Positions 4,268 through 60,022 of a DNA stretch of 64,000 bases are shown here, piece by piece; the stretch's first letter is position 1; each line of letters opens with the position of its first letter. The notes below the pieces were generated by a model. The model did not search any database. It was not told where the DNA came from and saw nothing but the letters and a program-made list of their open reading frames with translations. The position numbers were made by a program, and so were the translations under genes. This stretch comes from Candidatus Poribacteria bacterium (GTDB lineage Bacteria; Poribacteria; WGA-4E; PCPOR2b). Where the stretch lies: contig JAJDUM010000017.1 of NCBI GenBank assembly GCA_022826645.1, positions 62,001-126,000 on the forward strand, written 5' to 3'.

Positions 4268-4289
4268 CGAGATGTGAATCTCGACCTAC
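4268..4289 (-). repeat. GTAG-headed palindrome (REP-like)
   Basis: A perfect 6-bp stem CGAGAT/ATCTCG with a 4-nt loop, then AC and CTAC. On the minus strand this reads GTAG, a 2-nt spacer and the hairpin, the arrangement seen at nine or more other places in this window. Confidence 0.65.
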
Positions 4290-4312
4290 AGACCGCTATA
4301 TATAACCGATAC

Positions 4313-4356
4313 GACAAATAAAAAGCCCACCATCGAAAGCGGTTCGATGATGGGCT
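4313..4356 (-). terminator. Rho-independent terminator downstream of the coiled-coil gene
   Basis: On the minus strand a 14-bp stem (AGCCCATCATCGAA paired with TTCGATGGTGGGCT, one G-U pair) with a 5-nt loop is followed by TTTTTATTTG. It lies 120 nt past the stop of the gene at 4479-5189 and separates it from leuS. The rest of the 455-nt gap between the two genes holds the leuS promoter and one palindromic repeat; no further gene is seen. Confidence 0.85.
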
Positions 4357-4478
4357 GCCCGTCATATGTAGGATTTTCCGACATTCACCATTTCAGGTCT
4401 GTAACCCTCTGTAGTATACACTAGAACTGATCAGCAGCAAGCGCTCTCCGCTTTCATAAACTGAGGAGGCTTGGAAAC

Positions 4479-5189
4479 TCACTCGGCTGCTAGCTGCGAC
4501 TCCAAATCCTTGATTTTTCTCATAACCGCTAGCCGTTCATCAAACAATTTAGCCTCTTTCTGTGCTATTTCTTTAGACTTCTGATGATAGGAGTTGTCTA
4601 ACGACACCAAGGCACTCAGTCCGCCATCCTGTAGACGCGCTAGATCCCTCATTTGATGCCACTCTTCAGTAGCTTGACATTCTTCAAGGGTTGGATTGGT
4701 TCCAAGTTTCGTTTCTAGAATTTTGACGAGTCGATTAATCTCTTTCTCTAACTCCGTCTCCACAGAAGTAACTTCTGTGTTCAGAAGTTCAGAGTCAATA
4801 ATCGACTGATTAGCGAGTTCTGTTCTCAAGGTGCTGACCTGATCGATCTCTTCTTCCAATTTCTCTTTTTTAATCCTTAATTGAGCAAGTGTTTCTCGAA
4901 TCACTTGTCTAGTCTCAGTTTCATCAGTAGAAGAGGTTTCCGCCACAGCCGTCGCATCAACAGACATTTCCTCGGTAGACGTGATGCTTTCTAGCTCCGG
5001 CTCAAGATGATACTCCTGGGCAGTAGGGTGCGATTCAATCGGTGTTATAGGAAGGTTGCTAAGGGTAGGCGGGGGAGTGAGCAGCTCGTCATCTAACTGA
5101 TAAACCCAGTGACTCCCAAAGTAGCTTCCAGCGATGATTAGCACCGCTATCACCATTGCCCCCCAAACGACGCGCCAATTAAGTTGCAT
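4479..5189 (-). CDS. Membrane-anchored coiled-coil protein of unknown function
   Basis: A 236-residue protein with no family that I recognise. Residues about 7-28 form one hydrophobic segment (VVWGAMVIAVLIIAGSYFGS) that would act as an N-terminal membrane anchor. A proline, serine and threonine-rich linker follows to about residue 90. From about residue 95 to the end the protein is rich in Glu, Lys, Leu and Gln with heptad-like spacing, suggesting a long coiled coil. This topology would place the coil in the periplasm, as in many cell-envelope tethering proteins, but no specific role can be given. A GGAGGAATT ribosome site precedes the ATG, and a strong terminator lies downstream. Confidence 0.75.
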   Translation of the reverse strand: MQLNWRVVWGAMVIAVLIIAGSYFGSHWVYQLDDELLTPPPTLSNLPITPIESHPTAQEYHLEPELESITSTEEMSVDATAVAETSSTDETETRQVIRETLAQLRIKKEKLEEEIDQVSTLRTELANQSIIDSELLNTEVTSVETELEKEINRLVKILETKLGTNPTLEECQATEEWHQMRDLARLQDGGLSALVSLDNSYHQKSKEIAQKEAKLFDERLAVMRKIKDLESQLAAE

Positions 5190-5480
5190 GGGAATTCCTC
5201 CTTCTGACCGCCATTGTAATTTTACACATCTACTTCACTTGATTGCGGGCAAACTTAGTGGCTGTAAAACAGCAACACTAATTGCGTAAAACACAACCTC
5301 GTCAATTTCTGACTAAAGCTAAGGTTAAACATGACTTTCCCCCTAAATACAGGTTAGCTTTCGTGCAATCTTGAAAGGAACACTTACCTCTATTCCACAT
5401 CCCTTCTGTAGAACTCAAGGCTCAACTAACCTTTGGAAAAATATAAGGGATCTGACACCAAATTTTCAGGCGATAATGTT

Positions 5481-5618
5481 TAGGGTGAATTAGGGAAATA
5501 AGTAGACATTTACGAATAACTCCGACCTTAGCGAAATTGCCAAAGTCCCCCTGACAAGGGGGATTTAGGGGGTTGGCTCTGCATTGGGAATGTCTAAGTA
5601 ATTCTAAAATCTACCATA
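5481..5618. mobile_element. MITE-like element with TATGGTA-type terminal inverted repeats, copy 1
   Basis: About 138 bp. The ends are imperfect inverted repeats: the left end starts TAGGGTGAATTAGGG and the right end, reversed, starts TATGGTAGATTTTAG. The core is a C/G-run palindrome (GTCCCCCTGACAAGGGGGA) followed by TTTAGGGGGTTGG. A second copy in the opposite orientation lies at 60043-60175. It has no coding capacity. It takes up a third of the 442-nt gap between the coiled-coil gene and the VOC gene; nothing else is seen in that gap. Confidence 0.65.
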
Positions 5619-5631
5619 ATTCGCGTCATAC

Positions 5632-6060
5632 TTACGCTTGGAGCAGCTCCACACTCACCCCGTCAGGGGCATTAAGATAGGCAAGACTACCGCCCCAAGT
5701 ACTGCCAATCGAATCGTGAGGTTCGATAGAGAAAGTAGCACCTTTTTTCTTCAGTTCATTACAGAATTCAGCGAGATCCCCATGCACAAGGAAGGCAAAA
5801 TGATCCATGCCCCACTCATTGTGACTGGCAAAATCCCCGAAGGATTGTATACTGTTTGTCTTGTCCGGACTTTCACCCGGTCGCCGCCCGCGGATAAGAA
5901 GAGTTATCCCCTCGAAAACAACGGCAATCTGAGGGGCACCACGGAGTTCATACGTCTCAGTGATTTCTCCGCCCAGCATGTCTACGTACCATTGGGCAGC
6001 GACCTGCGGGTCTTCACTGATAATGTGGATATGCTCAAAAACGAGCTTAGCATTACCCAT
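5632..6060 (-). CDS. VOC-superfamily (glyoxalase/dioxygenase fold) protein
   Basis: A 142-residue vicinal-oxygen-chelate protein. The start VFEHIHIISEDPQVAAQWY is the usual first strand and helix of a VOC half, with a metal-ligand-type histidine in EHIHI. The second half contains WGMDHFAFLVHG (a second His) and ends SLAYLNAPDGVSVELLQ with the C-terminal Glu ligand. The three-residue metal site is therefore complete. VOC members include glyoxalases, epimerases and ring-cleaving dioxygenases; which activity applies here is not visible. AGGAAGG lies 9 nt before the ATG. Its neighbours upstream are two PhyH genes on the same strand. Confidence 0.85.
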   Translation of the reverse strand: MGNAKLVFEHIHIISEDPQVAAQWYVDMLGGEITETYELRGAPQIAVVFEGITLLIRGRRPGESPDKTNSIQSFGDFASHNEWGMDHFAFLVHGDLAEFCNELKKKGATFSIEPHDSIGSTWGGSLAYLNAPDGVSVELLQA

Positions 6061-6141
6061 AACGGCCTTCCTTTCCTAAGTCGCCGTCAATCCAAACAGG
6101 CAGTTCGCGCAGCTGCATTTATGCAGATCGGCGCGAAAGGG

Positions 6142-6966
6142 TTACGTGAGATTTCTGGCTGAACGATCGGCGATTGACTCTTCACCCAAGTGCTCGCGCA
6201 TCCATTCACGAAGCGGAACATCTTCCTCTCTCGGCGACGTTAGTCCTAAGTTGCCAGTTTTCGAGCCGAGCAACTGTCGCTGGATTGGATCGCATCGATC
6301 CATGTAATGAGAGACGGTCATCGCATCCCTCGGATGGAACCATCGGAGACTGTAGCCAACGAATAGCACCTTTCGCGTAATATCTGAGAAATTCCACCCG
6401 CCGGCATGCCAGATCCGACGGTCAAAGATGACCGCAGTGCCAGGAGGAACGCGAACCTCATGCGCATCTGGCGGATTTGAAACACCATCGGCGGGATATT
6501 CCACCTCATCCACCAGATGGCTACCGGGGACAACGCTGAAGTTGCCACGCCCACCCTCAGAAACATCGGTTAAAAAATAACCGATTTTGACGGAAATGCG
6601 CGGTGCGGGTACTGTTTCAATGTCCAAACTCACACGCCCACTGTCTTGATGCCAGTGAAGACGCTTCTTTGAGGGTCTATCTTCCAACGGTACTGGCGGC
6701 GTAACTGTGATATGCGTGTGGTACAGATGGATGTTCCAACCGAGTATGCCCCAGACCTTGGGCAAGGTTCGGTGCCAATCGACCAGTTCTAGGAATCGAT
6801 CATCTTTGCCTATGAAGTCCACGCCGGCTTTCACGCTGTCCACAGCATCGATTAGCCCTTCAACCATTGGCGCTGGAAGTGCGTTCTCGATTACAATGAA
6901 TCCGTCTCGTTCAAACTTGGTACGCTCCTGCTCTGTTAAACAGTGTTTCAAACATACGCTATCCAT
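6142..6966 (-). CDS. PhyH-type Fe(II)/2-oxoglutarate oxygenase
   Basis: 274 residues from the ATG at 6966. A longer in-frame start at 6981 exists, but GAGGAGG sits 6 nt before 6966 and the resulting MDSVCLKH matches the start of the neighbouring paralogue. The HxD is in LHWHQDSG (about residue 112), VVPGSH follows, and the distal His is in IWHAGGWN with Arg in TRKVLFVGYS. The C-terminus has DPIQRQLLG and DVPLREW, shared with the genes at 7089 and 39219. These three form one subfamily, distinct from the pair at the left edge. Confidence 0.92.
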   Translation of the reverse strand: MDSVCLKHCLTEQERTKFERDGFIVIENALPAPMVEGLIDAVDSVKAGVDFIGKDDRFLELVDWHRTLPKVWGILGWNIHLYHTHITVTPPVPLEDRPSKKRLHWHQDSGRVSLDIETVPAPRISVKIGYFLTDVSEGGRGNFSVVPGSHLVDEVEYPADGVSNPPDAHEVRVPPGTAVIFDRRIWHAGGWNFSDITRKVLFVGYSLRWFHPRDAMTVSHYMDRCDPIQRQLLGSKTGNLGLTSPREEDVPLREWMREHLGEESIADRSARNLT

Positions 6967-7088
6967 GATCAACCTCCTCACTCCATCCGATGGGTGTTTG
7001 TCGAATGGAACTCAATCTTTCACATATCCGTCCTTAATCGAGACAAAGCTTCTACGGCAAACTTGTCAACTTGTGTGGTTATGACAAA

Positions 7089-7949
7089 TCACTGGGTGTG
7101 GTTTCGTCCAAAAGTTACCGAAGGTGCGCCAACGATTCGAGCGTAGTTATCGGTAACCACCTCTTCGCCCAAATGTTCCTTAATCCAGGAACGAAGCGGG
7201 ACGTCCTCGTCCGAAGGCGATGAGGTGCCCATTGCCCGTGTTTTCGCACCGAGCAGCTGTCTGCGGATTGGATTAGAACGCTCCATAACATGTGCCACCG
7301 TTCGCTCATCTCTCGGATGAATCCAGCGATGGCTGTAGCCTACGAACAGGACCTTTCGTGTCACCTCGGACAGGTTCCAGCCGCGTGCATGAAAGAGCCG
7401 CCGATCGAAAATGACCGCCGTCCCCGCCATCCCTTTAATCTCTATCGCTTCCTTCGGATCCGAGATCCCATCGGCAGGTAACTCAATCTCTCTTTTGAGC
7501 TGGCTCCCAGGGAGTACGCTAAAGTTGCCGTATCCACCCTGTGTGAGATCTGTCAAGAAGTATCCTACTTTGATCGAGATACGTGGCTGGGGTCCCGGCT
7601 CGATATCGGCGTTTATGCGATCGCTGTCCTGATGCCAGCCCCGTCTGTGCTTTGTACGTTTGTGCTCCTCATCCTCTGGAGGCGTGACGAGCATCTGCGT
7701 GTAGTAGGAGTGGATGTTCCAGCCGAGAATTCCCCAGACTTTGGGAAATGTCCGGTGCCAATCGATTAGTTCCAGAAGTAGACCATCCTTCCCCAAAAAG
7801 TCTTCGCAGGCGCCAAGACGGTCTACTACTTTAACAAGCCCTTCGACCATTGAAGCCGGCAGTGCATCCTTGACGATAATGAACCCGTCCCGCTCAAAAT
7901 TGGCGCGCTCTTCCTCTGTCAGAACGTGCTGTAAACATTCGGCATCCAT
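7089..7949 (-). CDS. PhyH-type Fe(II)/2-oxoglutarate oxygenase
   Basis: 286 residues, clearly a tandem paralogue of the gene at 6142 (shared starts MDxxCLxH, shared LTEExRxxFERDGFI and a near-identical C-terminal half). The triad is visible as GWHQDSD (about residue 130) and LFHARGWN, with the arginine in TRKVLFVGYSHRW. GAGGAAA lies about 7 nt before the ATG. The 122-nt gap to its neighbour suggests a single transcript. Two diverging copies side by side suggest duplication followed by substrate change, but that is inference. Confidence 0.92.
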   Translation of the reverse strand: MDAECLQHVLTEEERANFERDGFIIVKDALPASMVEGLVKVVDRLGACEDFLGKDGLLLELIDWHRTFPKVWGILGWNIHSYYTQMLVTPPEDEEHKRTKHRRGWHQDSDRINADIEPGPQPRISIKVGYFLTDLTQGGYGNFSVLPGSQLKREIELPADGISDPKEAIEIKGMAGTAVIFDRRLFHARGWNLSEVTRKVLFVGYSHRWIHPRDERTVAHVMERSNPIRRQLLGAKTRAMGTSSPSDEDVPLRSWIKEHLGEEVVTDNYARIVGAPSVTFGRNHTQ

Positions 7950-8002
7950 AGTAATTTCCTCATAAATATGTCATAACGTAATAAGAGGGCTTCTCCGACG
8001 TT

Positions 8003-9079
8003 TCACGCTTGGTATCGTTCCGCATCAGCGGGTTCGACAAGATCTTCGCTCAGTGAGAAATTCAATTTTTCCGCGCATTCCTGAAGTTGACGATAGATAG
8101 TATCAGGAACATTGACCCCGTTAGCAAGCCGTTGGGAGCGGGAACGATATTCAAAGTCGCCCGGAACCAGCACTTCGTCGAAATCGGGCGCAGGTGGTAT
8201 GGACCTGATGCCGTCGAGAAACGCGCGGACGCCCTGCTGGTAAGGTTCTAATGGCGTAAAGGCGCTGATGTTGATAACCTGCATCAATGTGTTACTGCCC
8301 ATGGAAGCGGCCTTGATATCAAAGTTGCCAGACAGGCCGGCGAACAGGGATACGAGGAGGGAGAATGCGTAGCCCTTATGCCTGCCAAACGCTAACAGAG
8401 ATCCGCCATCGCTGAGATCCGCTGGCTTGACGCTCGGGTTGCCGCGCTTATCTACAATACAACCTTCGGGCAGATCAAGGCCCATGCTTGCAGCAACCGA
8501 GACTTTACCGGCGGCAATCATACTGGTAGCAAAATCGATGATGAATGGACTGTCGTCCCCGGTTGGTACACCGACCGCAATCGGATTGGTGCCCAGTGCT
8601 CCCCGCGCCGCCCCAAAAGGCACAGTACCGCCTCTATCCCTCGCACCGCCGCCATAGGTTATGATACCGATATACCCGGCACGTGCCGCCTGCTCCGCAT
8701 ATTCACCGAGTCGGCCGATATGCCCGGTATTGACAAAACTCACAGCGCAGGTATCCGCAGCTTTTGCCTTCTCAATCGCCCGTTCCATTGCCTGTCGAGC
8801 GGTATAGTGTCCGAAACCATTCCTCCCGTCAATACGGAAGGTATTTGTGGTTTCGTTGAACACCTCTGGTTCAGCAGCAGGTTGAATCCCACCATTGGAG
8901 ACGCTGCTTAGATAGCCGGGAATGCGGAGTACACCGTGCGAATCGTGCCCAGCGAGGTTCGCGTTAATCAAGATTTCAGCGACATCCTCAGCGATATGAC
9001 GCGGCGTATCCGCTGCCAGAAACAGTTGCCGCGTCACTGCATGCAGATAGCTTGCGTTGAAACAGTGCATTTCTGCCAT
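8003..9079 (-). CDS. Malate/L-lactate dehydrogenase family (Ldh_2) oxidoreductase
   Basis: 358 residues from the ATG at 9079, where GGAGAAGGAG precedes the start; an open frame extends 85 codons further upstream but has low-complexity, non-family sequence. The family (PF02615) comprises NAD(P)H-dependent reductases of 2-oxoacids such as ureidoglycolate, malate and 2,3-diketo-L-gulonate. GHDSHGVLRIPGYL near residue 45 is the family signature with the catalytic His. NTGHIGRLGEYAEQAA and GTNPIAVGVP form the nucleotide-binding region. KGYAFSLLVSLFAGLSG is the conserved C-terminal helix. Specific substrate unknown; the sugar-acid context would fit a ketoacid reductase. Confidence 0.9.
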   Translation of the reverse strand: MAEMHCFNASYLHAVTRQLFLAADTPRHIAEDVAEILINANLAGHDSHGVLRIPGYLSSVSNGGIQPAAEPEVFNETTNTFRIDGRNGFGHYTARQAMERAIEKAKAADTCAVSFVNTGHIGRLGEYAEQAARAGYIGIITYGGGARDRGGTVPFGAARGALGTNPIAVGVPTGDDSPFIIDFATSMIAAGKVSVAASMGLDLPEGCIVDKRGNPSVKPADLSDGGSLLAFGRHKGYAFSLLVSLFAGLSGNFDIKAASMGSNTLMQVINISAFTPLEPYQQGVRAFLDGIRSIPPAPDFDEVLVPGDFEYRSRSQRLANGVNVPDTIYRQLQECAEKLNFSLSEDLVEPADAERYQA

Positions 9080-9208
9080 AGCTTTGACTCCTTCTCCTGT
9101 ACCGCGCGACGGGGGTTGAATTGCATCATTCCGAGTAAATATCATACACGAGAAGCTAGCACCTGTCAACACCCAAAATAAGCGCGAAACGTGATGCCCC
9201 GATAAATC

Positions 9209-9232
9209 CCCGATAGGATCGGGACAGGCGGG
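9209..9232 (+). repeat. Short palindrome shared with the 59.9-kb element
   Basis: CCCGAT AGG ATCGGG followed by ACAGGCGGG. The same ATCGGGACAGGCGGG string recurs at 59868-59882, where it looks inserted into another repeat. It lies in the 387-nt gap 9080-9466, which otherwise holds only a possible promoter near 9374-9405 (TTGTTC and TATAAT, but 20 nt apart). Confidence 0.5.
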
Positions 9233-9466
9233 ACTCCGACAAGCCGAGAGCAGGCAGGCGGGATAGGAAGCACCGATTCTGCAACACGACTTCTTAACAT
9301 GGGCTATGCCAGAGAAATGAGCAAAATGTGGCATCTACGCTCACTTTGCGAACCTCTGCCTAGGTCCCGATTTTTGTTCTAAATCTCGCGTGGCTTTGAT
9401 ATAATTTTTGATGTAACGACGCTATCCGTAACTGAACGCAAGATTTTCAAATCGCTGGAGAATATC

Positions 9467-11089
9467 ATGAATTCATCAGATGCAGCGGCTCATAATGGAC
9501 TGACGATCAGCCCCCAACATATTGAAGCTATCAACCAGCAGCGTCGAATTATCTTCCAAGACGATGTGTTGGCTAACGACGTATTCAGGACTGACGAGGT
9601 AAGTACAGAACGGCTAGACAGGATTATCGACTTCTACATGAGTCGCCTTGATGAACAACCGAACCAGATTGACAGCATCTGGTTTGAGTGGGGCGAAGGG
9701 AATACAGCGGTCTGGCCCAGTGGCGTGATTCCCTGTACCGAAAATGTTTTTCCGAGATGGTGGAAAATCGGCATAGACCCGGTGGAGGTACTGTTGACCG
9801 AGGCAAAGAAACGTGGACGGGAGGTTTTCTTCTCCTACCGAATCAATGGATCGGACAACGACGATATGTTCGATCCACCCCGTCCATTTGATCAACCGGT
9901 TCCGTTAAAAGCTGAACACCCGGACTGGCTAATCTACAAATGGCATCCCTACTGGAATTTTTCCTTTAAGGGGGTTCGTGACCTGAAGCTGAACGTCGTG
10001 CGCGAAGCGGCGGAGATGTACGATTTCGACGGCATCCATATTGATTTCGCACGCATCCCGGTGCTTTTCCCAGAGAAGCAATGGTTGCATCGTAACATAT
10101 TGACCGATTTCATGCGCGATATACGCACCACACTGCTCGACATAGAGGCAAAACGTGGACGACCATTGCTATTGGCAGCCCGCGTTCCGGAAGATCTCAT
10201 GGGCTGCCACTTCGACGGTATGGACGTGGAAGCTTGGGCACGGGATTTTCTTGTTGATATCCTCGTGGTCGGCACACGGACAGCAAACGCGGATATCGCT
10301 GCCTTTCGCCAGATCACCAACGAAACCCCTATCAAACTCTACCCAAGCTTTGACGATCATCACTCCACCGATGGGTATAGAGAACCGGACCTCGAAATCT
10401 GGCGCGGTGCCTGTGCAAACTGGTGGCACCAAAACCCTGACGGTATGCATACCTTCAATTTAATGGTGTCCTCCCCGCAATCGGCAGAAAATCTGGATCT
10501 TAGTCCCTCACCCAGGTGGCAAACGCAGCGCAAAATCTTCAGTGAAATTGGCAGTCCCGCAACGCTTAAAGGGGTAAACAAGGTGTTTTTCGTCGAGCGC
10601 CGGGGCGGCGGACACGCTGAATATGTCGTTCCATCGCCGGCGAACTGGCACACCCCTCGGCACATGTATTTCCAGACCAACATGCTGGCATCGTTGCCTG
10701 CAACATTAGTAGATGACGGTAGGGAGGATACGCTGCTCACCTTGAACGTAGCAGATGATGTGAACGCTGCCTCAGTAGAAATCGATCAGATAACGCTACA
10801 AATAGCTGTCTCTGATGCGGCGGGTGAGGTTTTGTCTTTGGACGAAAGGCTTGAGATGCTTGGATCAAAGGTCGCGGTAAGGCTGAACAATATTCCGCTC
10901 GACGCCCCTCGCACTGAGACCGTAGAGACCTCGAATGAGGCTTTCAAGAACTGGCTGATTTTTACTGTAAAACCGGGTTACCTTGCGGTGGGAGCCAATC
11001 TCGTCGGTGTGGGGCTAAGCCAACAGCTACCCGCTGTTTTCGGTCATATCCAGATTGAGAAACTCGAATTACACGTCCGCTACAGATAA
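9467..11089 (+). CDS. Glycoside-hydrolase-like TIM-barrel protein
   Basis: A 540-residue protein resembling the GHL10-like glycoside-hydrolase-type barrels. Visible barrel strands include SIWFEWGEGN, VEVLLTEAKKRGREVFFSYR, EMYDFDGIHIDFAR (a typical beta4-type acidic motif, about residue 188-200) and RPLLLAARVPEDL. The segment EHPDWLIYKWHPYWNFSF is like the substrate-side loops of these proteins. From about residue 410 a beta-rich C-terminal domain follows (TLLTLNVADDVNAASVEIDQ). There is no signal peptide, so it is probably cytoplasmic. Catalytic acids cannot be assigned with confidence. A role in handling oligosaccharides is likely from the fold alone. Confidence 0.7.
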   Translation: MNSSDAAAHNGLTISPQHIEAINQQRRIIFQDDVLANDVFRTDEVSTERLDRIIDFYMSRLDEQPNQIDSIWFEWGEGNTAVWPSGVIPCTENVFPRWWKIGIDPVEVLLTEAKKRGREVFFSYRINGSDNDDMFDPPRPFDQPVPLKAEHPDWLIYKWHPYWNFSFKGVRDLKLNVVREAAEMYDFDGIHIDFARIPVLFPEKQWLHRNILTDFMRDIRTTLLDIEAKRGRPLLLAARVPEDLMGCHFDGMDVEAWARDFLVDILVVGTRTANADIAAFRQITNETPIKLYPSFDDHHSTDGYREPDLEIWRGACANWWHQNPDGMHTFNLMVSSPQSAENLDLSPSPRWQTQRKIFSEIGSPATLKGVNKVFFVERRGGGHAEYVVPSPANWHTPRHMYFQTNMLASLPATLVDDGREDTLLTLNVADDVNAASVEIDQITLQIAVSDAAGEVLSLDERLEMLGSKVAVRLNNIPLDAPRTETVETSNEAFKNWLIFTVKPGYLAVGANLVGVGLSQQLPAVFGHIQIEKLELHVRYR

Positions 11090-11356
11090 AACATGTTGAC
11101 GCACAAACCGCTGGCAAACGGACTTTATAGACCTGAACCGTATCAAGCAATTTTGGATGAAGCTGGCAAACATATTCGGAAGATCGTCACGTAACTCTAA
11201 GAAACAGAATTAGATGAATTATTGTCCCCGGCTAATTTTGGTTTGAACAGAATTAGCCTTATCCCAGAGCGCGAAATTAGATCTGCAAAAGTATGATCAA
11301 AACTGACAAAGTATATATCGACAAATTCCACATATAAATCACCAAACGAGGGAATT

Positions 11357-13617: not shown

Positions 13618-13713
13618 CATCGAGGTTCATTTTAAGGAATAGTGCAAAGCAGTGAAGCGTGATGCGTGAAATGTGAAAACCATTGGTTGACCCGTCCATC
13701 GGTTCATTGGCAT

Positions 13714-13737
13714 GGTCGGGCAAGATGCCCGACCTAC
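13714..13737 (-). repeat. GTAG-headed palindrome (REP-like)
   Basis: A perfect 9-bp stem GGTCGGGCA/TGCCCGACC with loop AGA; the right arm runs into CTAC (13734-13737), that is GTAG on the minus strand. It lies between the ends of the convergent kinase and acetamidase genes. Confidence 0.7.
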
Positions 13738-13829
13738 GAAACAACCCGTAACAATGATCATCCGGTCTAAGACCGAGAGTTCTACCCTATAGCTGTTGCG
13801 TGACCTCTTTACGGGAACCAATGTACATT

Positions 13830-16911: not shown

Positions 16912-16935
16912 GTAGGTGCGGTTTCCAACCGCACC
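16912..16935 (+). repeat. GTAG-headed palindrome (REP-like)
   Basis: GTAG followed by an 8-bp perfect stem GTGCGGTT/AACCGCAC with loop TCC. Same layout as the other GTAG palindromes but with its own arm sequence. Confidence 0.7.
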
Positions 16936-19513: not shown

Positions 19514-19584
19514 CGTGAAACGTGATTCGTGAAACGTGATAGGTTGATTGTCGTTGGGTTTCACTGTCGTTTAACTCAACCTAC
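19514..19584 (-). repeat. CGTGAAACGTGA tandem motif plus GTAG-headed imperfect palindrome
   Basis: The stretch begins with CGTGAAACGTGATTCGTGAA-type repetition, also found near 35310 and in degenerate form near 13653. It is followed by GTTGGGTT ... AACTCAAC (19553-19580, one G-U pair) and CTAC at 19581-19584, which is GTAG on the minus strand. Confidence 0.55.
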
Positions 19585-27167: not shown

Positions 27168-27280
27168 AGGACTTACGCAGTTGAACACTCAAAGCCCTGT
27201 AGTTCGGCGATTCATCGCCGCAGGACACCGTTCCCAAGGCCCAATGAATCGGGCAACTACATCCGAAGCACGTAAGTCCT
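27168..27280. mobile_element. MITE-like element with AGGACTTACG terminal repeats and an internal GTAG palindrome pair, copy 1
   Basis: 113 bp with perfect 10-bp terminal inverted repeats AGGACTTACG/CGTAAGTCCT. Inside, GTAG (27199) plus CGGCGAT/ATCGCCG faces a second hairpin GCCCAAT/ATCGGGC (27239-27254) ending AACTAC (CTAC at 27257). The two GTAG-type feet point outwards, the layout of a REPIN. It lies between the PhyH and enolase-superfamily genes. A second copy is at 59777 and a left-end fragment at 32251. Confidence 0.75.
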
Positions 27281-29419: not shown

Positions 29420-29443
29420 GTAGGGAACGCAGATCTGCGTTCC
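29420..29443 (+). repeat. GTAG-headed perfect palindrome (REP-like)
   Basis: GTAG directly followed by a 20-bp fully self-complementary sequence whose arms are GGAACGCAGA and TCTGCGTTCC. It ends exactly at the stop codon of the PhyH gene at 29444. Confidence 0.7.
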
Positions 29444-33483: not shown

Positions 33484-34227
33484 CTATTTCTCGACAGTTG
33501 CGAACCTTATTGTCATATCAATGTTCTCAAAATACGAGCAGTCCATACAGTCACAAGCAAACTCATTATTCCACCGCCTGGAAACCTCTATCTGAATCAG
33601 ATAGAGGTTTCCATTTTCAAGTAACTTTCCGTTCGCACCAAGAAGAAATTTGACGGTTCGGTCAGCCCAGACAGCTTCCCAACCAAGGTCCTCACCATCT
33701 TCAGTAAGCAGCTTAGACTTCAAATCAATAACAGGTATACTAAAATCATACCGGATGCCGCCCCCATTCAACGGGTCAGGATCAACATCGGCCTCACCAT
33801 CGAATACACTTCCCGCTGTTATAGATGGCCTATCAAAATCAGCTATTACCAGTATCAGTCTTATATATGCACCAACATTAAGGGAGCCGTCGGGATTCGT
33901 CCATTTAATATGAAATAACTGATCTCCAAGCTTCTGCGTCGGATTCGGAAAACACCAAATCGCTCTATTCCCTTCGACACGGGCAGCAGTCCCATTAACA
34001 GTCACGGCTAGCGGTTCCTTATCGAAATAAAGCACGAGTGGTAGCAGCTCCGCAGCCACTTCCCCATTTGCGGGAATCGTCTTAACCAGTGTAGCAACCT
34101 CTCTTTCGACCACCTCCTTAGGAACTGTTTCAATAGAGGATACCGAATCCTCATCCCCGCATCCCACCAGTCCGAAGGAGGCGAGCGCGAGCAATCCGGC
34201 ACATACCAGCAACTTAGCAAACATAAG
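33484..34227 (-). CDS. Lipoprotein with one SbsA-like Ig domain and a CDCMDC motif
   Basis: 247 residues from the ATG at 34227 (GGGGAAAGG upstream, MFAKLLVCAGLLALASFG signal peptide, lipobox FGLVGC). One Ig-like repeat (about 45-130) is followed by the same C-terminal domain as the neighbour, including DVDPDPLNGGGI, GEDLGWEAVWADRTVKF and ACDCMDCS. DNA similarity to the neighbour continues into the 3' flank of both genes, so the duplication is recent relative to other paralogues here. Three conserved cysteines in a CxCxxC arrangement could bind metal or form a disulfide. Confidence 0.85.
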   Translation of the reverse strand, partial: LMFAKLLVCAGLLALASFGLVGCGDEDSVSSIETVPKEVVEREVATLVKTIPANGEVAAELLPLVLYFDKEPLAVTVNGTAARVEGNRAIWCFPNPTQKLGDQLFHIKWTNPDGSLNVGAYIRLILVIADFDRPSITAGSVFDGEADVDPDPLNGGGIRYDFSIPVIDLKSKLLTEDGEDLGWEAVWADRTVKFLLGANGKLLENGNLYLIQIEVSRRWNNEFACDCMDCSYFENIDMTIRFATVEK

Positions 34228-49488: not shown

Positions 49489-49489
49489 C

Positions 49490-50329: not shown

Positions 50330-50408
50330 GAAATATAAACCTAGTGGATGTGCATGTTAGCATGTAACCGTCTATATGTTTCGCAGCTAAACTTGTTTGG
50401 AGGAAATA

Positions 50409-51795: not shown

Positions 51796-51955
51796 TCACC
51801 TCCGTCGGATCTTTTTCGTTTTGATGCTTTTCGTAAAATTCAAGAACGCAAAGCCGTACGACCTGACTGATGGACATACGCTTGAGCTCGGCATATTTCC
51901 GCACGAAATCGTGCAAATCCTTATCTAATCGAAACTGTACAGTTTGTTTAGCCAT
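51758..51955 (-). CDS. Ribbon-helix-helix regulator upstream of the methyltransferase
   Basis: 65 residues from the ATG at 51955. The start AKQTVQFRLDKDLHDFVRKY gives the beta strand and first helix of a CopG/Arc-type RHH domain, and RMSISQVVRLCVLEFYE the second helix. The 3' end overlaps the methyltransferase start by 38 nt. Restriction-modification systems are usually controlled by helix-turn-helix C proteins, so an RHH in that position is unusual. It could repress the module, binding the palindrome at 52043. It could also be an antitoxin remnant. Confidence 0.78.
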   Translation of the reverse strand: MAKQTVQFRLDKDLHDFVRKYAELKRMSISQVVRLCVLEFYEKHQNEKDPTEVNDVSDSTNQGQA

Positions 51956-51965
51956 GATGTAACCA

Positions 51966-51994
51966 ATTATATTACAAATCATTGCAAATATCAA
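51966..51994 (-). promoter_or_regulatory. Probable sigma70 promoter of the RHH-methyltransferase pair
   Basis: Minus strand: TTGATA, 17 nt and a perfect TATAAT, only 11 nt before the RHH ATG. The short leader suggests a weakly translated or leaderless-like message. Confidence 0.65.
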
Positions 51995-52042
51995 ATAAAA
52001 ATTAAGAGAATTTGCCCCAAACCGTGCTTTTTTACGTTTTTT

Positions 52043-52067
52043 TGTATATTTTCGCAATAAATATACA
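52043..52067. promoter_or_regulatory. Palindrome upstream of the RHH gene, candidate operator
   Basis: Perfect 9-bp inverted arms TGTATATTT/AAATATACA around 7 nt. It is 49 nt upstream of the -35 box of the RHH promoter. No T-run follows on either strand in the right place, so it is not a terminator. It could be the operator of the RHH protein. The rest of 52058-52234 is AT-rich and without a gene. Confidence 0.45.
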
Positions 52068-52234
52068 ATATCTCGTGCTATACGCGTCTAAATGACCTGG
52101 CTGCGACGATTAATTCGCATTATTCCCGTGGATATAATAAAAAAAGTATCAGCCCCCAAATCCAGTGGTTTCGCAGTTCCTTAACAAGCACACTGGACTA
52201 GATATGACAGATGTGAATCATGAGAAACTTGTAT

Positions 52235-53623: not shown

Positions 53624-53642
53624 AGATGTAGACCTTCTAAAT

Positions 53643-54749
53643 TTAAGGGTTGTGTTTCACAAGAGAGATGATTGATTGGGCAATTTCTTCGCCCGCGCGT
53701 GGATTGCCCAACTGATAACTCTGATTTGCCATCCGCTGCTGCTCTGCTGGATCGCCCATAATTCTGATGATTTCGCCAGCAAGTTTGCCACCTGTTAATG
53801 TCGGTTGATCGAGGGCAACACCTGCCCCTGTCTCCGTCACTGCTTGGGCATTCAGTCTTTGGTGATCACCAGCAGCGGTTGGCAAAGGAATAAAGATCGC
53901 TGGAATACCACACGCGGTGATTTCCGCGATTGTCATGCCACCGGCTCGGCACACCATCAAATCGGTGATACTATAGATTTTTTCAATGGGATCAAAGTAC
54001 GGCTGTACCACATGTTGGAGTGAGGATTGTTGATAGCGAGTCTTAACAGCTTCGTAATCAGCTTTTCCCGTTTGATGGACGAACTGAATGCGTTGATGAA
54101 CTGATTCTAAATCATTTAGGGCGTCGGTCATATTTTGGTTGATTGCCTGCGCACCTTGGCTGCCACCCATTACAAACACGGTTTTCCGTTCTGGATCTAG
54201 TCCAAGTGACCCGTAGGTCTCACAGGTTCGCTCAGCCACTCCGATGGTTCGACGAATCGGGTTACCCATTACCCTTGTTCTATCAGCTGGAAAATGCGTA
54301 CCAGCGGTTTCAAACGCAAGATAGATCCCCTTTGCCCAACGCGCGAGAATACGATTTGTGAGTCCGGGGGCAGCATTCTGCTCTTGGATGACCGTTGGCA
54401 TACCGAGCAGCACAGCCGCGAGAAGGACGGGACCACAGACATATCCGCCTGTGCCTACGACAACACACGGTTGCAGGTTCTTGAGTAGCCGTAACGATTT
54501 CGCCAAACCGGAACAGACTTTGCAGAGAGTAGGTATCCATTGCCATGTTAATTTTCGCGGAAAACCGGCAACCGAAATCGGAAGGAAATGAAATCCATGC
54601 TGCGGGACAAGTGTTGATTCGAGACGATCCGCTCCACCGATGAAAGCGACCTCGATCTTCGCATCGAGTTGCACGAGTTCTTTGGCAATACCGATTGCGG
54701 GATAGATGTGACCACCAGTACCACCGCCTGAAATCACGATTCGTGGCAT
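53643..54749 (-). CDS. murG: UDP-GlcNAc:lipid I GlcNAc transferase MurG
   Basis: 368 residues from the ATG at 54749, giving the family start RIVISGGGTGGHIYPA; an in-frame extension of ten residues is unlikely. It makes lipid II on the inner face of the membrane. VVGTGGYVCGPVLLAA is the GGY acceptor-site motif and MGGSQGAQAIN (about 206) the nucleotide site. VCRAGGMTIAEITACGIPAIFIPLP is the conserved C-terminal UDP-GlcNAc site. Length and motifs are normal. Confidence 0.97.
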   Translation of the reverse strand: MPRIVISGGGTGGHIYPAIGIAKELVQLDAKIEVAFIGGADRLESTLVPQHGFHFLPISVAGFPRKLTWQWIPTLCKVCSGLAKSLRLLKNLQPCVVVGTGGYVCGPVLLAAVLLGMPTVIQEQNAAPGLTNRILARWAKGIYLAFETAGTHFPADRTRVMGNPIRRTIGVAERTCETYGSLGLDPERKTVFVMGGSQGAQAINQNMTDALNDLESVHQRIQFVHQTGKADYEAVKTRYQQSSLQHVVQPYFDPIEKIYSITDLMVCRAGGMTIAEITACGIPAIFIPLPTAAGDHQRLNAQAVTETGAGVALDQPTLTGGKLAGEIIRIMGDPAEQQRMANQSYQLGNPRAGEEIAQSIISLVKHNP

Positions 54750-54897
54750 CTGCCTAAACCTCATTTGTATTATGATCAAGAGACTACTGTGTAGAGTATA
54801 ACGATCTGTTAGATGCAGTTCAACGGATAGGGGGTCCCCTTGCTAGGGCTATAACGGGAATCGTCGAACCGGCTGGAACGTCTATTCTTTCGATGAA

Positions 54898-56094
54898 TCA
54901 AGATTCAATCTCTATGGGTGCATGTGCATCCGGGGTTTCATTCATGTCACGCGAAATGTTCAACAGAATTCCGATACTGAATAAGCTAACTAAGAGCGAT
55001 GAGCCGCCGTAACTCATGAAAGGCAGCGTAATACCCTTCGCAGGCAGCATCCCCGTCACCACACCGATATTGAAAACAGTTTGCAATCCAATGAGTGTGA
55101 TAATTCCGATAGCAATTAAACCTCCAAACGCATCTGTGGTATGTTGAGCAATATGGATACCCCGCCAGATAAGTAACATAAACAGAACAATAATACCAAC
55201 CACACCAACAAAACCAAGTTCTTCGCCAAGAATAGCGAAAATAAAGTCGGTATGCGGATAAGGGAGATGAAAGAGCTTAAAAACGCTGTTTCCAATACCT
55301 GCACCGAACAGTCCGCCGAGAGCAAGGGCATTTAGGGATTGGTTAACCTGATAGTGTCCTTCGTAGGGAAACTTTAGGGAACTCAGAAACCCTTGAATTC
55401 GCTGCATTTTATAGATGTCATCTTGGATTGATGAATAGATGAAAAAGCAGGCAATTCCAACGATAAGAACAATTTGTGAAGGGCGTGCGCCTCCTACGAA
55501 GAGAAGAACGAGAACTGATAGGCTCAACAAGACCGCCGATCCAAAATCAGGTTGCTTGTACAGAAGGATAAATGTGATGGATAGGATAAAAATGGTCGGC
55601 AGTACACCTCGGGTGAAACTTCGAATTTGGCTATGTTTGCTGATGAGAAAGTGAGAAACGTAAATTATCAACCCAAGCTTTGTCAACTCAACGGGTTGAA
55701 ATTGCCAACCCGACACCCGAATCCATCGGTAAAATCTGATGCCACCCGCCGAACGAACATCGTGCCCAATTGGTGAAAATACCAGCAGCAAACCGATCAA
55801 TGACAGAAGTAAAATAAGCTTCGCGTACCTTTGATAATACTGATAAGGGAAGTATGATGCAACGAACATGCCAACCAACCCAAGCATGCAGGCGATCAGC
55901 TGCATTTTCAAATAGTGAAAACTATTTTCGTTATACAACTCATAGGCAAGCATGTTGCTTGAACTGTAGACCATCACGATTCCGATCGCAACAAGACACA
56001 GTGTGATAAACAGCAGGACGTGATCTATTCCTCCTTTAATCGGATAATTTTTCCAGATGAATCTCGGAGTTTGCGGTTGCTTCTGTCGATACAA
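54898..56094 (-). CDS. ftsW: Lipid II polymerase/flippase FtsW
   Basis: About 400 residues, a SEDS-family septal peptidoglycan polymerase with about ten transmembrane segments. Family lines seen are VMVYSSSN, GWQFQPVELTKLG (the catalytic loop region), KQPDFGSAVLL and the C-terminal LPFMSYGGSSLLVSL. The start is uncertain. The frame is open far into murD; TTG at 56094 with GGGAGG upstream is used here, and GTG at 56127 is another option. A strong AAAGGAGG overlapping the murD stop is followed by no ATG, GTG or TTG at normal distance. The SEDS core itself is complete. Confidence 0.92.
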   Translation of the reverse strand: MYRQKQPQTPRFIWKNYPIKGGIDHVLLFITLCLVAIGIVMVYSSSNMLAYELYNENSFHYLKMQLIACMLGLVGMFVASYFPYQYYQRYAKLILLLSLIGLLLVFSPIGHDVRSAGGIRFYRWIRVSGWQFQPVELTKLGLIIYVSHFLISKHSQIRSFTRGVLPTIFILSITFILLYKQPDFGSAVLLSLSVLVLLFVGGARPSQIVLIVGIACFFIYSSIQDDIYKMQRIQGFLSSLKFPYEGHYQVNQSLNALALGGLFGAGIGNSVFKLFHLPYPHTDFIFAILGEELGFVGVVGIIVLFMLLIWRGIHIAQHTTDAFGGLIAIGIITLIGLQTVFNIGVVTGMLPAKGITLPFMSYGGSSLLVSLFSIGILLNISRDMNETPDAHAPIEIES

Positions 56095-57454
56095 GGTGGT
56101 TAACAGCCTCCCGAAACGCTTGACCACGCGCCTTATAATCTGTGAACATATCAAAACTTGCATTCGCCGGTGATAAAAGCACGACATCGCCTGGTGCTGC
56201 GTGTGAGTACGCGAGCGCAACAGCATCGCTAACTGTTGCTGCATCCCGTGTAACGACATGCGCTGCAAGGGCGTTTCGTATTATTCCGGTGTGCGATCCG
56301 AGCAGAATTAACACTTTTACCCTTGATCGGACACACTCAACGAGGGGTTCGTACTCGTTTCCTTTATCGTATCCACCCATAATTAGCAAAATTGGATCGG
56401 ACAACGATTCCAACGCGGCTTTGACTGCGGCGACATTCGTGGCTTTGGAATCGTTGATGAAGCGGATACCATTAACTGTTTTTACTGGCTCAAAGGCGTG
56501 CTGAAGCGGGGGATGTTCGGCGGGGGAGAACGCAGAAATAGCAGAACGCATCATATCCGGTGAGATGCCGAAAATCTGTCCGACAGTTATTGCAGCAAGG
56601 ACGTTCTGAAGATTATGTCTTCCCGGCAAGGGACTGTCTCCAACATCACAGATCCAGTGGGATTCGCCATCCCATTGAGTAAGAATTTTTCCATCTTTTA
56701 CATAAGTGCCCTTTTCAACAGTAGTAGTGTCAGCAAAATAGATTGCCTTTGCTTCCGTCGCATCAGCAAAGGTCAAAACATGTTGATCCAAACTGTTTAG
56801 CACAATCCAGTCTGTTAATCTTTGGTTCGCACAGATTCTTAGTTTTGCCGCACGATAGGCTTCCATTGTTCCGTGCCGATCAAGGTGGTCGCGCGATAGG
56901 TTCAGCACAACGCTGACTGCCGGTCGAAATCTCTCCGTGGTTTCCAACTGAAAACTGCTTGCCTCAATGACAACGAGATCTTCAGCCGTCAAACCTTGGA
57001 CTTCGCTCGATAGCGGGACACCGATGTTGCCAGCAGTGCACACTCTGCGAAAATCTCCATACTTGAGGAGTTCGGCTGTCAGAATCGTAGTTGTCGACTT
57101 GCCCTTTGTTCCAGTAATTGCAACCATCGGCGCAGCGCAGAGACTTGCAGCAACTTCCAGTTCACCGGTAATTGGGATGCCTGCGGCACGTGCTTCCTGT
57201 AAAATTGGGATGTCCAACGGCACTCCCGGCGAAAGGACAATCAGATCCGCTTTTTCAATGCAGCGCTGATCATGACCACCAAGAATAAAACCGATATCTC
57301 GATCTTTTAGGGCATCGACATCTGCTTGAAGCTCGTCACTGGATTTCGGGTCGGTTACAAGAACCTTGGCACCGAGATCGGATAGCAACTTAGCAACAGC
57401 AACACCGCTGCGATGAAGTCCGAAGACGGTGATCTGTTTATCTGTGTATGTCAT
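56036..57454 (-). CDS. murD: UDP-N-acetylmuramoylalanine--D-glutamate ligase MurD
   Basis: 472 residues. It adds D-glutamate in the second peptide step. The N-terminal Rossmann part starts ITVFGLHRSGVAVAKLL. AITGTKGKSTTTILTAELL (about residue 115) is the ATP loop, FINDSKATNVAAVKAALES the later signature and LLSPANASFDMFTDYKARG the C-terminal motif. All are intact. It is the first recognisable gene of the cluster; mraY, murE and murF are not upstream, where a creatininase-like gene ends 12 nt away. The gene overlaps the presumed ftsW start. Confidence 0.97.
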   Translation of the reverse strand: MTYTDKQITVFGLHRSGVAVAKLLSDLGAKVLVTDPKSSDELQADVDALKDRDIGFILGGHDQRCIEKADLIVLSPGVPLDIPILQEARAAGIPITGELEVAASLCAAPMVAITGTKGKSTTTILTAELLKYGDFRRVCTAGNIGVPLSSEVQGLTAEDLVVIEASSFQLETTERFRPAVSVVLNLSRDHLDRHGTMEAYRAAKLRICANQRLTDWIVLNSLDQHVLTFADATEAKAIYFADTTTVEKGTYVKDGKILTQWDGESHWICDVGDSPLPGRHNLQNVLAAITVGQIFGISPDMMRSAISAFSPAEHPPLQHAFEPVKTVNGIRFINDSKATNVAAVKAALESLSDPILLIMGGYDKGNEYEPLVECVRSRVKVLILLGSHTGIIRNALAAHVVTRDAATVSDAVALAYSHAAPGDVVLLSPANASFDMFTDYKARGQAFREAVNHLVSTEATANSEIHLEKLSD

Positions 57455-57466
57455 TTGGCACTTACC

Positions 57467-58201
57467 TCACAGACGCGCCCCAATTCTTCTTACCCAAGCT
57501 GCTACGACTGCATCAACCATCGCCTGTCCATGCTCGACATTGGCAGTCCAACTATTCTTCTCCTCATCTTGACGACAATACCAAGGTGCGGTGTCGTCCA
57601 GTCGGCCTTGCTCCACCAATTCGGGACGGGTCGCCAGTAGGAAGGAGGTTTCGTTATATCCAGCGTGGTCGCCACCAGCCGGGGGCGATGCATCGGGTAG
57701 AATCATCGGTTGAACATCGACATGACCAGACAATGGTCCTGCCTCGTCCTTCAAGGATTCCACACCCCACCAACCGCGCGGATACCCTTGCTCTAAGATG
57801 TTCTCAAAGGAAAGTTCGGCTGCGGCTTTTTTGAAAGCTAGCGCAAGCGGTGCCTCCATACCCTGATGCATGATGATCACGTAGATGGCCTTGAAGCCCA
57901 TCTCTCGGAAGTTTTTCAGAATAGCTTTGACGTGCGCTCCAAATGCGGCGTAATCTGGATCAATGGTTCCATCAGCGGGACCACCGAGCGCGTATCCGGT
58001 GGGACCATAGTCGAAAGACGGCGCAATGACAACCTCCACTTTTTCAGCGATCCGGGCACAGATTTCTTCAACGATGATCGTGTCGTGTCCTATCGCCATG
58101 TGGGGACCATGGGTCTCAATGCAACCTGCCGGTACGAGTAGAGGATCCCCCCGTTCGACGGCTTCCTTTAGCTGGTAGGGGCGTATATGTTTTAAGTACA
58201 T
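57467..58201 (-). CDS. Creatininase-family amidohydrolase-like protein
   Basis: 244 residues from the ATG at 58201 (GGAG upstream); an open frame continues 30 codons further but gives non-family sequence. The creatininase fold shows VPAGCIETHGPHMAIGHDT (metal Glu, His and Asp), APSFDYGPTGYALGGPADGTI (in place of the usual GxxxEH), and GHADV as SGHVDVQP. The family includes creatininase and the MftE peptidase. It lies 12 nt upstream of murD, so it may drive or share the transcript, although no functional link to cell-wall synthesis is known. Confidence 0.87.
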   Translation of the reverse strand: MYLKHIRPYQLKEAVERGDPLLVPAGCIETHGPHMAIGHDTIIVEEICARIAEKVEVVIAPSFDYGPTGYALGGPADGTIDPDYAAFGAHVKAILKNFREMGFKAIYVIIMHQGMEAPLALAFKKAAAELSFENILEQGYPRGWWGVESLKDEAGPLSGHVDVQPMILPDASPPAGGDHAGYNETSFLLATRPELVEQGRLDDTAPWYCRQDEEKNSWTANVEHGQAMVDAVVAAWVRRIGARL

Positions 58202-58330
58202 GGTATCTCCGCTTGTCGAATCCGAGCATCCTACCGGATCCGATTTCGAGTTCGATTCACGGTTAATTGACAAAATAGCCGAATTACTCAAATATTACCA
58301 CGCTTGAGCCATTAGAGCAACATGCTTTTC

Positions 58331-58359
58331 TTGATTGAATCCCGAATTGATGCTAAACT
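58331..58359 (+). promoter_or_regulatory. Possible sigma70 promoter of the propeller gene
   Basis: TTGATT, 17 nt and TAAACT, in the divergent gap between the creatininase and propeller genes, about 108 nt before the downstream ATG. Confidence 0.4.
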
Positions 58360-58467
58360 GGAGTGGAGATTGAGACCGTCTACAGCAAGATACGACAATA
58401 GCGTCATATCTGGACTATTTGTCAACAGTGGACAGGATAGACATTTCATAGGAGATGGAGGAAGAGC

Positions 58468-59703
58468 ATGAAAAGACGACCCGATTTGCAAAGTGAAGGC
58501 AGTCTTGATGAGTTGGAAATTATCCAACTGACAACGGAGGAAGATGTGCCCAGTTCCCACATTTATATGGAGGCGCAGATCTTTACGCCGGACTCGAAGC
58601 GGTTTATCCTCCATCGCTCCGCACACCCACATGGATCAGATCCGGGAAACCCCGAACACAAGTACCTGATTTGCGATATAGAAAGCAACTGCGAACTCAT
58701 TCCAATTACCGAGGAAACCGGTGCAACCGCGCCCTCTGTCTCGCCCGACGGAACAACCCTCTATTACTTTATTGATGAAACCGAGCCCGGTGGTGGAAGC
58801 CTGACGCTGAAACGCGTGGCCATGGACGGCACTGGAAGAGCGACATTGCTGAAAATTGACGCACCACTTTCTGACACCGATTTTCGTCCGAGCCGGCCTT
58901 ATCCGCTATCTACAATATCCTCTGATGGAAAGCGGTTGGCGATTTCCGCCTTCTTCGGCGATGGAAACACAGCGCACGCGCCATGGGGCTTGCTGGCTTT
59001 TGACTTGGAGGCGGTATCGGTTGAATTGATTATCCATGGACAGAGCTGGTGCAATATGCACCCACAGTACAGCCGGTCCCTCGACGCTGAAGAGACCCAC
59101 GATATTTTGATCCAAGAAAATCATGGCAACAGCTGCGATCCGGCAGGAAAAGTCACCCAGTTGACTGGGGGAGATGGGGCGGATATCCACGTTATCCGCG
59201 ACGATGGTACGAGGCTCAGAGATTTGCCTTGGGGACGGAATGGGGTTGAGTTCTGTCAGGGCCATCAGTGCTGGGTCGGGCGCAGCGCGAGGGCGCTTAC
59301 CAGCACTTCCACACGGGAACCTAGGAGTTGTCAACTTATTGAGGGACGCGCCACAGACCATGTGGGACATTTAGGACTCAACACACCAAACGGGGTGCGT
59401 AATGATCTGTCACGAGAGTTCCCAGACCCTGACTTCTATCATTTTGCCACGGATCTTGCTGGACGGCGTCTGATCACGGACGCTGGACCCAGAGACGGCG
59501 GAGGTGCGATCTATCTAGCCGAGTTACCTACCGATGAAACGGAGGCGTTGCAAGACATCACCTTTTTGCTCAACCCACGCTCTTCTTGGGAGAAAGGTAG
59601 TCACATCCACCCGTTCCTCTCGCCAGACGGCAGTACAGGGTTCTTTAATTCGGACGAGAGTGGCATATTGCAGGCGTACATGGTAAAGGGTTGGGCGGTC
59701 TGA
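58468..59703 (+). CDS. Oligogalacturonate-lyase-like (PL22-type) beta-propeller protein
   Basis: 411 residues. WD40/TolB-like blades such as FTPDSKRFILHRS, VSPDGTTLYYFIDE, SSDGKRLAISAF and LSPDGSTGFFNSD are seen. HPQYS, GHQCW and HIHPFLSPDG supply the histidines that in oligogalacturonate lyases bind a metal. Such enzymes split unsaturated galacturonate dimers in the cytoplasm. No signal peptide fits that location. GGAGG precedes the ATG. Assignment to the family is by pattern, and activity on uronates is inferred; the uronate-dehydrogenase-like genes elsewhere in the window would be consistent. Confidence 0.72.
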   Translation: MKRRPDLQSEGSLDELEIIQLTTEEDVPSSHIYMEAQIFTPDSKRFILHRSAHPHGSDPGNPEHKYLICDIESNCELIPITEETGATAPSVSPDGTTLYYFIDETEPGGGSLTLKRVAMDGTGRATLLKIDAPLSDTDFRPSRPYPLSTISSDGKRLAISAFFGDGNTAHAPWGLLAFDLEAVSVELIIHGQSWCNMHPQYSRSLDAEETHDILIQENHGNSCDPAGKVTQLTGGDGADIHVIRDDGTRLRDLPWGRNGVEFCQGHQCWVGRSARALTSTSTREPRSCQLIEGRATDHVGHLGLNTPNGVRNDLSREFPDPDFYHFATDLAGRRLITDAGPRDGGGAIYLAELPTDETEALQDITFLLNPRSSWEKGSHIHPFLSPDGSTGFFNSDESGILQAYMVKGWAV

Positions 59704-59776
59704 GATAGCAAAGGCTATCCTCTGCCCATAGAAAGTGATAGATCGCGGCTTGCCATCAGCCATTTATGGTAGATAT

Positions 59777-59900
59777 AGGACTTACGCAGTTGAACGCTCA
59801 AGGCATTGTAGTTCGGCGATTTATCGCCGCTGGACACCATTCCTAACGCTCGATGAATCCCCGATTTATCGGGACAGGCGGGCAACTACAGTAAATCCGT
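59777..59900. mobile_element. MITE-like element with AGGACTTACG end and internal palindromes, copy 2
   Basis: The left end AGGACTTACGCAGTTGAAC and the GTAG palindrome at 59808-59829 match copy 1 at 27168. The right part ends GGGCAACTACAG (CTAC at 59886) with a degraded terminal repeat GTAAATCCGT. Compared with copy 1 it carries about 20 extra bases, CCCGATTTATCGGGACAGG (from 59860), itself a palindrome also found at 9209. The 593-nt stretch 59704-60296 consists almost entirely of such repeats; no gene is seen. Confidence 0.7.
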
Positions 59901-60000
59901 AGGTTGGTAGTAGAGTGATTTATCGAATACCCGTTGTATCGCGCAGTAGTGTTTGGTGAGTTGAGCCAGATACTACTACGCGACGTTGTTGGTATCTGAC

Positions 60001-60022
60001 GCGCAATGAATTGCGCTACTAC
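60001..60022 (-). repeat. GTAG-headed palindrome (REP-like)
   Basis: A perfect 7-bp stem GCGCAAT/ATTGCGC with loop GA, then TACTAC; CTAC at 60019-60022 is GTAG on the minus strand. Just upstream, 59939-59991 holds CGCGCAGTAGT and ACTACTACGCG as larger inverted arms. Confidence 0.65.

Follow-up and report, generated by a model that had tools for sequence, protein, structure and literature searches.

GTAG-footed palindromes of a Candidatus Poribacteria genome: probable REP elements of seven kinds and the RAYT genes beside them

A 64,000-nucleotide stretch of the genome of a Candidatus Poribacteria bacterium (GenBank assembly GCA_022826645.1, contig JAJDUM010000017.1, positions 62,001 to 126,000), hereafter the window, contains ten short palindromes that have the tetranucleotide GTAG (CTAC on the other strand), which we call the foot, at one end and differ in their stems. 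An earlier sequence-only reading took these palindromes for one family of repetitive extragenic palindromes (REPs), the elements moved by REP-associated tyrosine transposases (RAYTs, also denoted TnpA-REP), with arms that diversify while the foot is kept. The question raised by this locus is why dissimilar palindromes share the foot. The answer that we consider highly probable is that they are REPs of seven kinds, each of which is, or once was, the substrate of its own RAYT. The draft genome measures 6.04 Mb, is 94.4% complete and contains the window in its contig 37.

The GTAG foot and the dispersed copies

All ten palindromes are present in the sequence readout of the window, and at nine of them GTAG lies 0–2 nt from the stem or overlaps the last G of the stem. 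An automatic test, which required a perfect stem and a hairpin beginning anywhere from 1 base inside the foot to 3 bases past it, was passed by seven sites (4268, 13714, 16912, 27199, 29420, 59808, and 60001); by eye, GTAG feet are also seen at two sites with imperfect stems, 27239, where 6 of 7 pairs form, and 19553, which has one mismatch and a long loop. The sole exception to the foot rule is 59860, where the CCCGATTTATCGGG hairpin and its CTAC lie about 12 nt apart, an additional palindrome being inserted in the damaged REP arm. The ATTCAT-like loop that had been noted for several stems takes the form ATTCAT or ATTTAT at 27199, 59808, and 60001 and is partially present at 4268. A scan of the window against Rfam produced zero matches.

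The association of the foot with hairpins was assessed on both strands of a 462-kb sample that consists of the window and 20 stretches of 18–20 kb. A hairpin follows 52 of the 2457 GTAGs, compared to 3254 of the 921,900 occurrences of all tetranucleotides, a 6.0-fold excess (P 1e-23), and by this measure GTAG and TAGG, which overlap, hold the first two ranks among the 256 tetranucleotides. Within the window alone, the count is 7 of 371 GTAGs, with 1.39 expected (P 6e-4), and a cruder count detected 51 GTAG feet among 348 hairpins versus 7 among 253 in one Markov-resampled copy.

The palindromes are, furthermore, repeated across the genome. Hand grouping of the sampled loci and of the RAYT loci of this genome reveals approximately 13 kinds of GTAG hairpin that are seen at least twice, and the ten window palindromes, grouped in the same manner, form seven kinds. 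The kind with the GTAGTT foot (27199, 27239, 59808, and 59860) was sought with the pattern GTAGTTNNNNGATTCATC, allowing at most one mismatch and ignoring the trailing Ns, so that the 3' arm was left free; this search produced 84 matches, compared to 2 for the reversed pattern. The 29420 kind yielded 49 matches, and copies of the remaining kinds were seen in sampled loci only. That the window palindromes are common terminators, or hairpins that arose by chance and happen to have a GTAG beside them, has in our estimate a negligible probability: hairpins without the foot are indeed common, accounting for 18 of the 21 strong ones in the window, but the enrichment of the foot, the dispersed near-identical copies and the RAYT neighbors described below contradict this explanation.

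RAYT genes beside the palindromes

Across the whole genome, the Y1_Tnp profile produced 7 matches and NF047646 produced 9 at E up to 1, none of which falls within the window, in agreement with the earlier statement that it contains no RAYT gene. GTAG hairpins surround four RAYT genes of the genome: L060, flanked by GTAGTT REPs with a GATTYATC core; L058, flanked by GTAGTA REPs with an AATTYATT core; L061, flanked by GTAGGGAACGCAGATCTGCGTTCC REPs; and L059 together with L066, a single gene split over two reading frames, flanked by GTAGGA REPs with a CATCCYTG core. The first three of these fit window kinds, L060 corresponding to the GTAGTT kind, L058 to 60001, and L061 to 29420. L065 is a fragment, and at L006:1160-1888, on contig 33 of this genome, a RAYT is divided over two reading frames, the longer of which extends into REP copies that read as repeated VGEASLPR peptides. 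IS200-like TnpA genes were also considered as a source of the palindromes and rejected: four genes, L001–L004, look IS200-like (the two that were scored, L001 and L002, exceed the IS200 cut-off), and GTAG hairpins are absent at L001 and L002 and, at L003 and L004, come no closer to the gene than about 470 nt.

The phylum survey covered 84 genomes, of which 62 encode a RAYT match at E up to 1e-10, and part of these loci were fetched. Among the four window kinds that lack a RAYT in their own genome, three have a RAYT neighbor in the same genus and one in the same order. The 4268 kind adjoins the same-genus RAYT L082 (three copies and one stem variant); the 19553 kind adjoins the same-genus RAYT L075 with one copy and, in another genus (G041), is found on both sides of the RAYT L070; the 16912 kind adjoins the same-order RAYT L095 (one copy and four of a stem variant). 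The same-genus RAYT L252 is flanked by GTAGGCGGGGCATCTTGCCCCGCC palindromes, of which 13714 is a stem variant with two outer pairs swapped, and this link assumes that the two belong to one kind because their loop and inner stem are identical. Thus, every one of the seven kinds has a RAYT-type transposase gene as a neighbor, three in this genome and four in relatives, two of the latter via stem variants, so that the RAYT genes flanked by the same palindromes for which the sequence-only reading had recommended a search do exist, and its assignment of the palindromes to REP-type elements with a constant GTAG foot is borne out.

The known properties of RAYTs suggest how a foot could be kept under changing stems. 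These single-strand HUH/tyrosine transposases would bind the hairpin as single-stranded DNA and read its loop and inner stem, with pairing alone required of the outer stem, and GTAG would serve to guide the choice of cleavage site; in that case, the foot and loop should remain fixed while the outer pairs drift by paired changes. The biochemistry of two group 3 TnpA-REP enzymes leads to the same prediction (Corneloup 2021, PMC8266576): GTAG and the loop bases are needed for cleavage, changes in the foot impair cleavage or shift its site, and swaps in the lower stem are tolerated or even helpful, with mismatches in the stem being harmful. We observe the same combination here, with foot and loop constant and an outer stem that is free as long as it is paired; the enzymes assayed come from Stenotrophomonas and Marinomonas, and the mechanism would extend to the RAYTs of this genome by homology. 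Several RAYTs would have passed through the lineage, and copies produced by those no longer detected would remain as orphans.

An alternative is a single family of REPs whose arms drift freely because one promiscuous RAYT recognizes nothing but the GTAG foot. Such an enzyme would explain why all ten palindromes have the foot in common and differ in their stems, and the outer stem bases do matter little (PMC8266576). Nevertheless, we reject this scenario as very unlikely because distinct kinds flank distinct RAYT genes and the loop and inner stem are constant within each kind; moreover, neither of the two group 3 enzymes tested can do without the loop bases (PMC8266576).

The persistence of REPs without their RAYT is seen in relatives. 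The 29420 kind is present in the genomes G018, G019, and G022, with 41, 12, and 3 matches, respectively, and the L061 RAYT is unmatched in all three at E up to 1e-8. In this comparison of draft genomes, with completeness of 88–98%, REP populations apparently outlive their RAYT, in keeping with the four window kinds that lack one.

Several points weigh against the assignment of each kind to a RAYT of its own. Four of the seven window kinds have no RAYT in the assembly, an absence that is unproven given the 94.4% completeness. Two of the genes in question, L060 (72.6 bits) and L061 (51.2 bits), fall under the 80-bit cut-off of the NCBI RAYT profile NF047646, which L058 and L059 exceed, so the naming of L060 and L061 as RAYTs relies on the REPs around them no less than on the profile. 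The link to L075 consists of a single copy, and L095 carries mostly, and L252 carries, a stem variant of the respective window kind. Another sequence, GGACTTACG, is located within 45 nt upstream of 23 of the 44 GTAGTT-kind copies, so that part of this kind may have spread in another way (see below). Finally, the movement of the copies, the contacts made in recognition and the loss of RAYTs are what we infer.

Comparison with known systems places these palindromes as new REPs of the known GTAG type, mostly ordinary, the most interesting part being the REPs within RAYT genes that match those outside. The 24 GTAG-tagged REP families of Di Nocera 2013 (PMC3733652) have the same foot, stems of 5–13 bp and short loops, and also share the presence of several families per genome, complementary stem changes, heterodimers and family-specific REPtrons; the present genome has more kinds than any single-genome example met there. 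The RAYT/REP pairs of Nunvar 2010 (PMC2817692) likewise comprise a REP-delimited RAYT gene, with coevolution of the two and palindromes kept by complementary changes, and the Pent1 REP in Table 1 of that work shares its GGATTCATCC core with the GTAGTT kind. These pairs come from other bacteria, and the genome studied here lacks a RAYT for some of its kinds.

The features identified in the window are listed in Table 1. The strongest hairpin in the window, a perfect 16-bp palindrome with a 3-nt loop at 33579-33613, has no GTAG foot.

Table 1 REPs and the REP-containing element in the window, with the evidence for each.
Feature	Coordinates	Strand	Evidence
REP, GTAGGTCGAGATTCACATCTCG kind	4268..4289	-	RAYT in same-genus genome (L082, G019)
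REP, GTAGGTCGGGCATCTTGCCCGACC, stem variant of GTAGGCGGGGCATCTTGCCCCGCC kind	13714..13737	-	RAYT in same-genus genome (L252, G020)
REP, GTAGGTGCGGTTTCCAACCGCACC kind	16912..16935	+	RAYT in same-order genome (L095, G079)
Imperfect REP, GTAGGTTGGGTTGAACGATAGTGAAACCCAAC kind	19553..19584	-	RAYT in same-genus genome (L075, G020)
111-bp element, GGACTTACG ends, inverted REP pair inside	27169..27279	+	Locus L022 is the same place
REP, GTAGTT CGGCGATTCATCGCCG, L060 kind	27199..27220	+	Motif search, foot-hairpin test, RAYT neighbor
REP partner, GTAGTT GCCCGATTCATTGGGC, one mismatch, L060 kind	27239..27260	-	Readout, motif search
REP, GTAGGGAACGCAGATCTGCGTTCC, L061 kind	29420..29443	+	RAYT neighbor, motif search, foot-hairpin test
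REP, GTAGTT CGGCGATTTATCGCCG, L060 kind; GGACTTACG end at 59778	59808..59829	+	Motif search, foot-hairpin test
Damaged REP partner of L060 kind, foot and stem separated by an extra palindrome	59860..59889	-	Readout
REP, GTAGTA GCGCAATTCATTGCGC, L058 kind; outer stem unlike L058 copies	60001..60022	-	RAYT neighbor, foot-hairpin test

Stem variation, inverted pairs and a second carrier

Within a kind, the outer stem pairs change on both sides, the foot is kept, and the inner stem and loop hardly change. Among 42 distinct copies of the GTAGTT kind, all four positions of the outer quartet are complementary in 24, three in 13 and fewer in 5; the 3' arm was unconstrained by the search, and yet the outer stem is mostly paired, with CGG..CCG and GCC..GGC as its main classes. 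For the 29420 kind, the search let the R and Y positions vary independently and counted double-foot palindromes on both strands. One stem pair of this kind is A-T in 16 matches, G-C in 12 and mismatched in 2 in genome G013; the corresponding counts are 5, 9, and 1 in G014, G020 has 33 A-T pairs and 1 mismatch, and A-T alone is found in G018 (41), G019 (12), and G021 (12); these pair counts take in six of the 49 matches in G000 and none of the three in G022. Paired stem changes have been published for other REPs (PMC3733652; PMC2817692). The notion of one family with diversifying arms and a kept foot therefore stands inside single kinds, mainly with respect to the outer stem pairs, and fails across the ten sites, where the variety mostly reflects seven kinds, each with a different RAYT gene.

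The GTAGTT kind also forms inverted pairs, examined here as same-foot partners within about 75 nt, some of which were viewed from both ends. In all 19 arm views, an arm of the CGG or GGG type is opposite one of the GCC, GTC, or GCT type, and in 16 of the 19 the foot of the partner starts exactly 34 nt past the end of the first hairpin. The preference of REP pairs for heterodimers is known (PMC3733652). Inverted pairs with unlike arms, GTAGGGGCGGGG..CCCCGCCC with GTAGGGGTTGGG..CCCAACCC, occur at L038:18054-18106, L047:16381-16432, and L052:13099-13155.

One of the window pairs is enclosed by GGACTTACG ends in a 111-bp unit (27169-27279), and similar layouts recur in the genome. Conceivably, the GTAGTT kind spread mainly as a passenger of a GGACTTACG-ended element moved by a different transposase, an explanation to which we assign a minor but appreciable probability. 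GGACTTACG occurs 16 times in the 462 kb, compared to 3.5 expected by base count; in 11 of 45 views from its ends, some elements being viewed from both, GTAGTT and the opposite end are located within 190 nt; and 16 of the 23 GTAGTT copies with this end upstream have it exactly 30 nt away, the copy counts not being a genome-wide rate because the loci were fetched for these REPs. However, within the same 45 nt the end is absent at 21 of the 44 GTAGTT copies and at all 16 GTAGTA copies, REPs of this kind lie around the RAYT L060, and the other kinds are left unexplained. REPs of the GTAGTT kind may also travel as passengers of this second carrier. GGACTTACG ends are found at 27169-27279, 59778, and 32252 in the window and at the loci L012, L018, L029, and L037, several pairs enclosing REP pairs; at L013, L020, and L035, pairs of such ends also enclose GTAGGGAACAACGATCGTTGTTCCCTAC palindromes, in what looks like a nested small element.

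REPs within RAYT genes

The L061 gene contains its own REP in frame (L061:1705), between the HUH motif and the tyrosine. Homologs of L061 were detected in 34 of the 84 genomes of the phylum, several of them split at the point of the REP, with loops that hold GTAG palindromes read as VGARSPRP, VGATHASP, VGAGLVPAQ, and similar peptides. The trait itself is not a discovery: in-frame REPs between HuH and Y, and their predominance, have been reported for TnpA-Y1 subclass 2.4 (Quentin 2018, PMC6006769), which L061 and its homologs fit also in their double-foot REPs and variable-length loop. In that report, the in-frame REPs were considered unique to subclass 2.4 and likely of little impact. At odds with this uniqueness, L252 of G020, a YCYENP-type RAYT unlike the L061 clade, contains two in-frame copies of its REP (L252:2251-2485), in a loop elsewhere in the protein that is bounded by FKSFTAKKIN and WQEGYY.

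To the phylum loci we added a scan of public genomes, keeping the best 80 of 583 L061 relatives. Among the 110 loci examined, 103 contain both protein blocks (the 7 dropped all came from the phylum search), and the reading frame is kept across the loop in 103 of 103. A GTAG palindrome is present in the loop of 66 of these loci, from many phyla (15 of 23 in this phylum and 51 of 80 elsewhere; besides L061, those with an in-frame palindrome come from L097–L126 and L171–L250), and absent from the remaining 37. The palindromes are concentrated in the loop, with 76 in 13.5 kb compared to 3 in the 38.7 kb of the remaining core. In the 40 loci where internal and flanking REPs could be compared, their best similarity averages 0.91, versus 0.64 when genes are shuffled (0.688 in the best of 300 shufflings), and 19 of the 40 hold an identical internal and flanking pair; the 103 loci are not independent because near relatives share ancestry. 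In one case, L097 and its homolog L098 (68% protein identity) show the same A-T to G-C difference in the internal and the flanking palindromes, which may be due to chance because both stem types coexist in that genome. This agreement gene by gene goes beyond the subclass description of Quentin 2018 (PMC6006769), and no report of it was met in the literature surveyed, mostly by title and with supplements excluded.

Repeated local insertion, copying and selection are each a possible source of the match between internal and flanking REPs. We tentatively entertain, as the less probable option, that the internal REP is a kept part of the gene rather than a tolerated scar, the RAYT gene bearing its own recognition hairpin in frame. 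The enzyme and its substrate would then be inherited, and change, together, and the RAYT may target or detect its own gene or its mRNA. If this is the case, a kept internal REP would provide a route for REP arms to diversify without the loss of the transposase.

In the interpretation that we favor, of REPs belonging to several RAYTs, the odd palindromes of this window become a readable record of the single-strand transposases that visited the genome. The analysis also widens a published oddity, in that REPs are found inside their own RAYT genes in relatives from many phyla and resemble the REPs that flank the same gene, a likeness that makes the co-diversification of enzyme and substrate testable.

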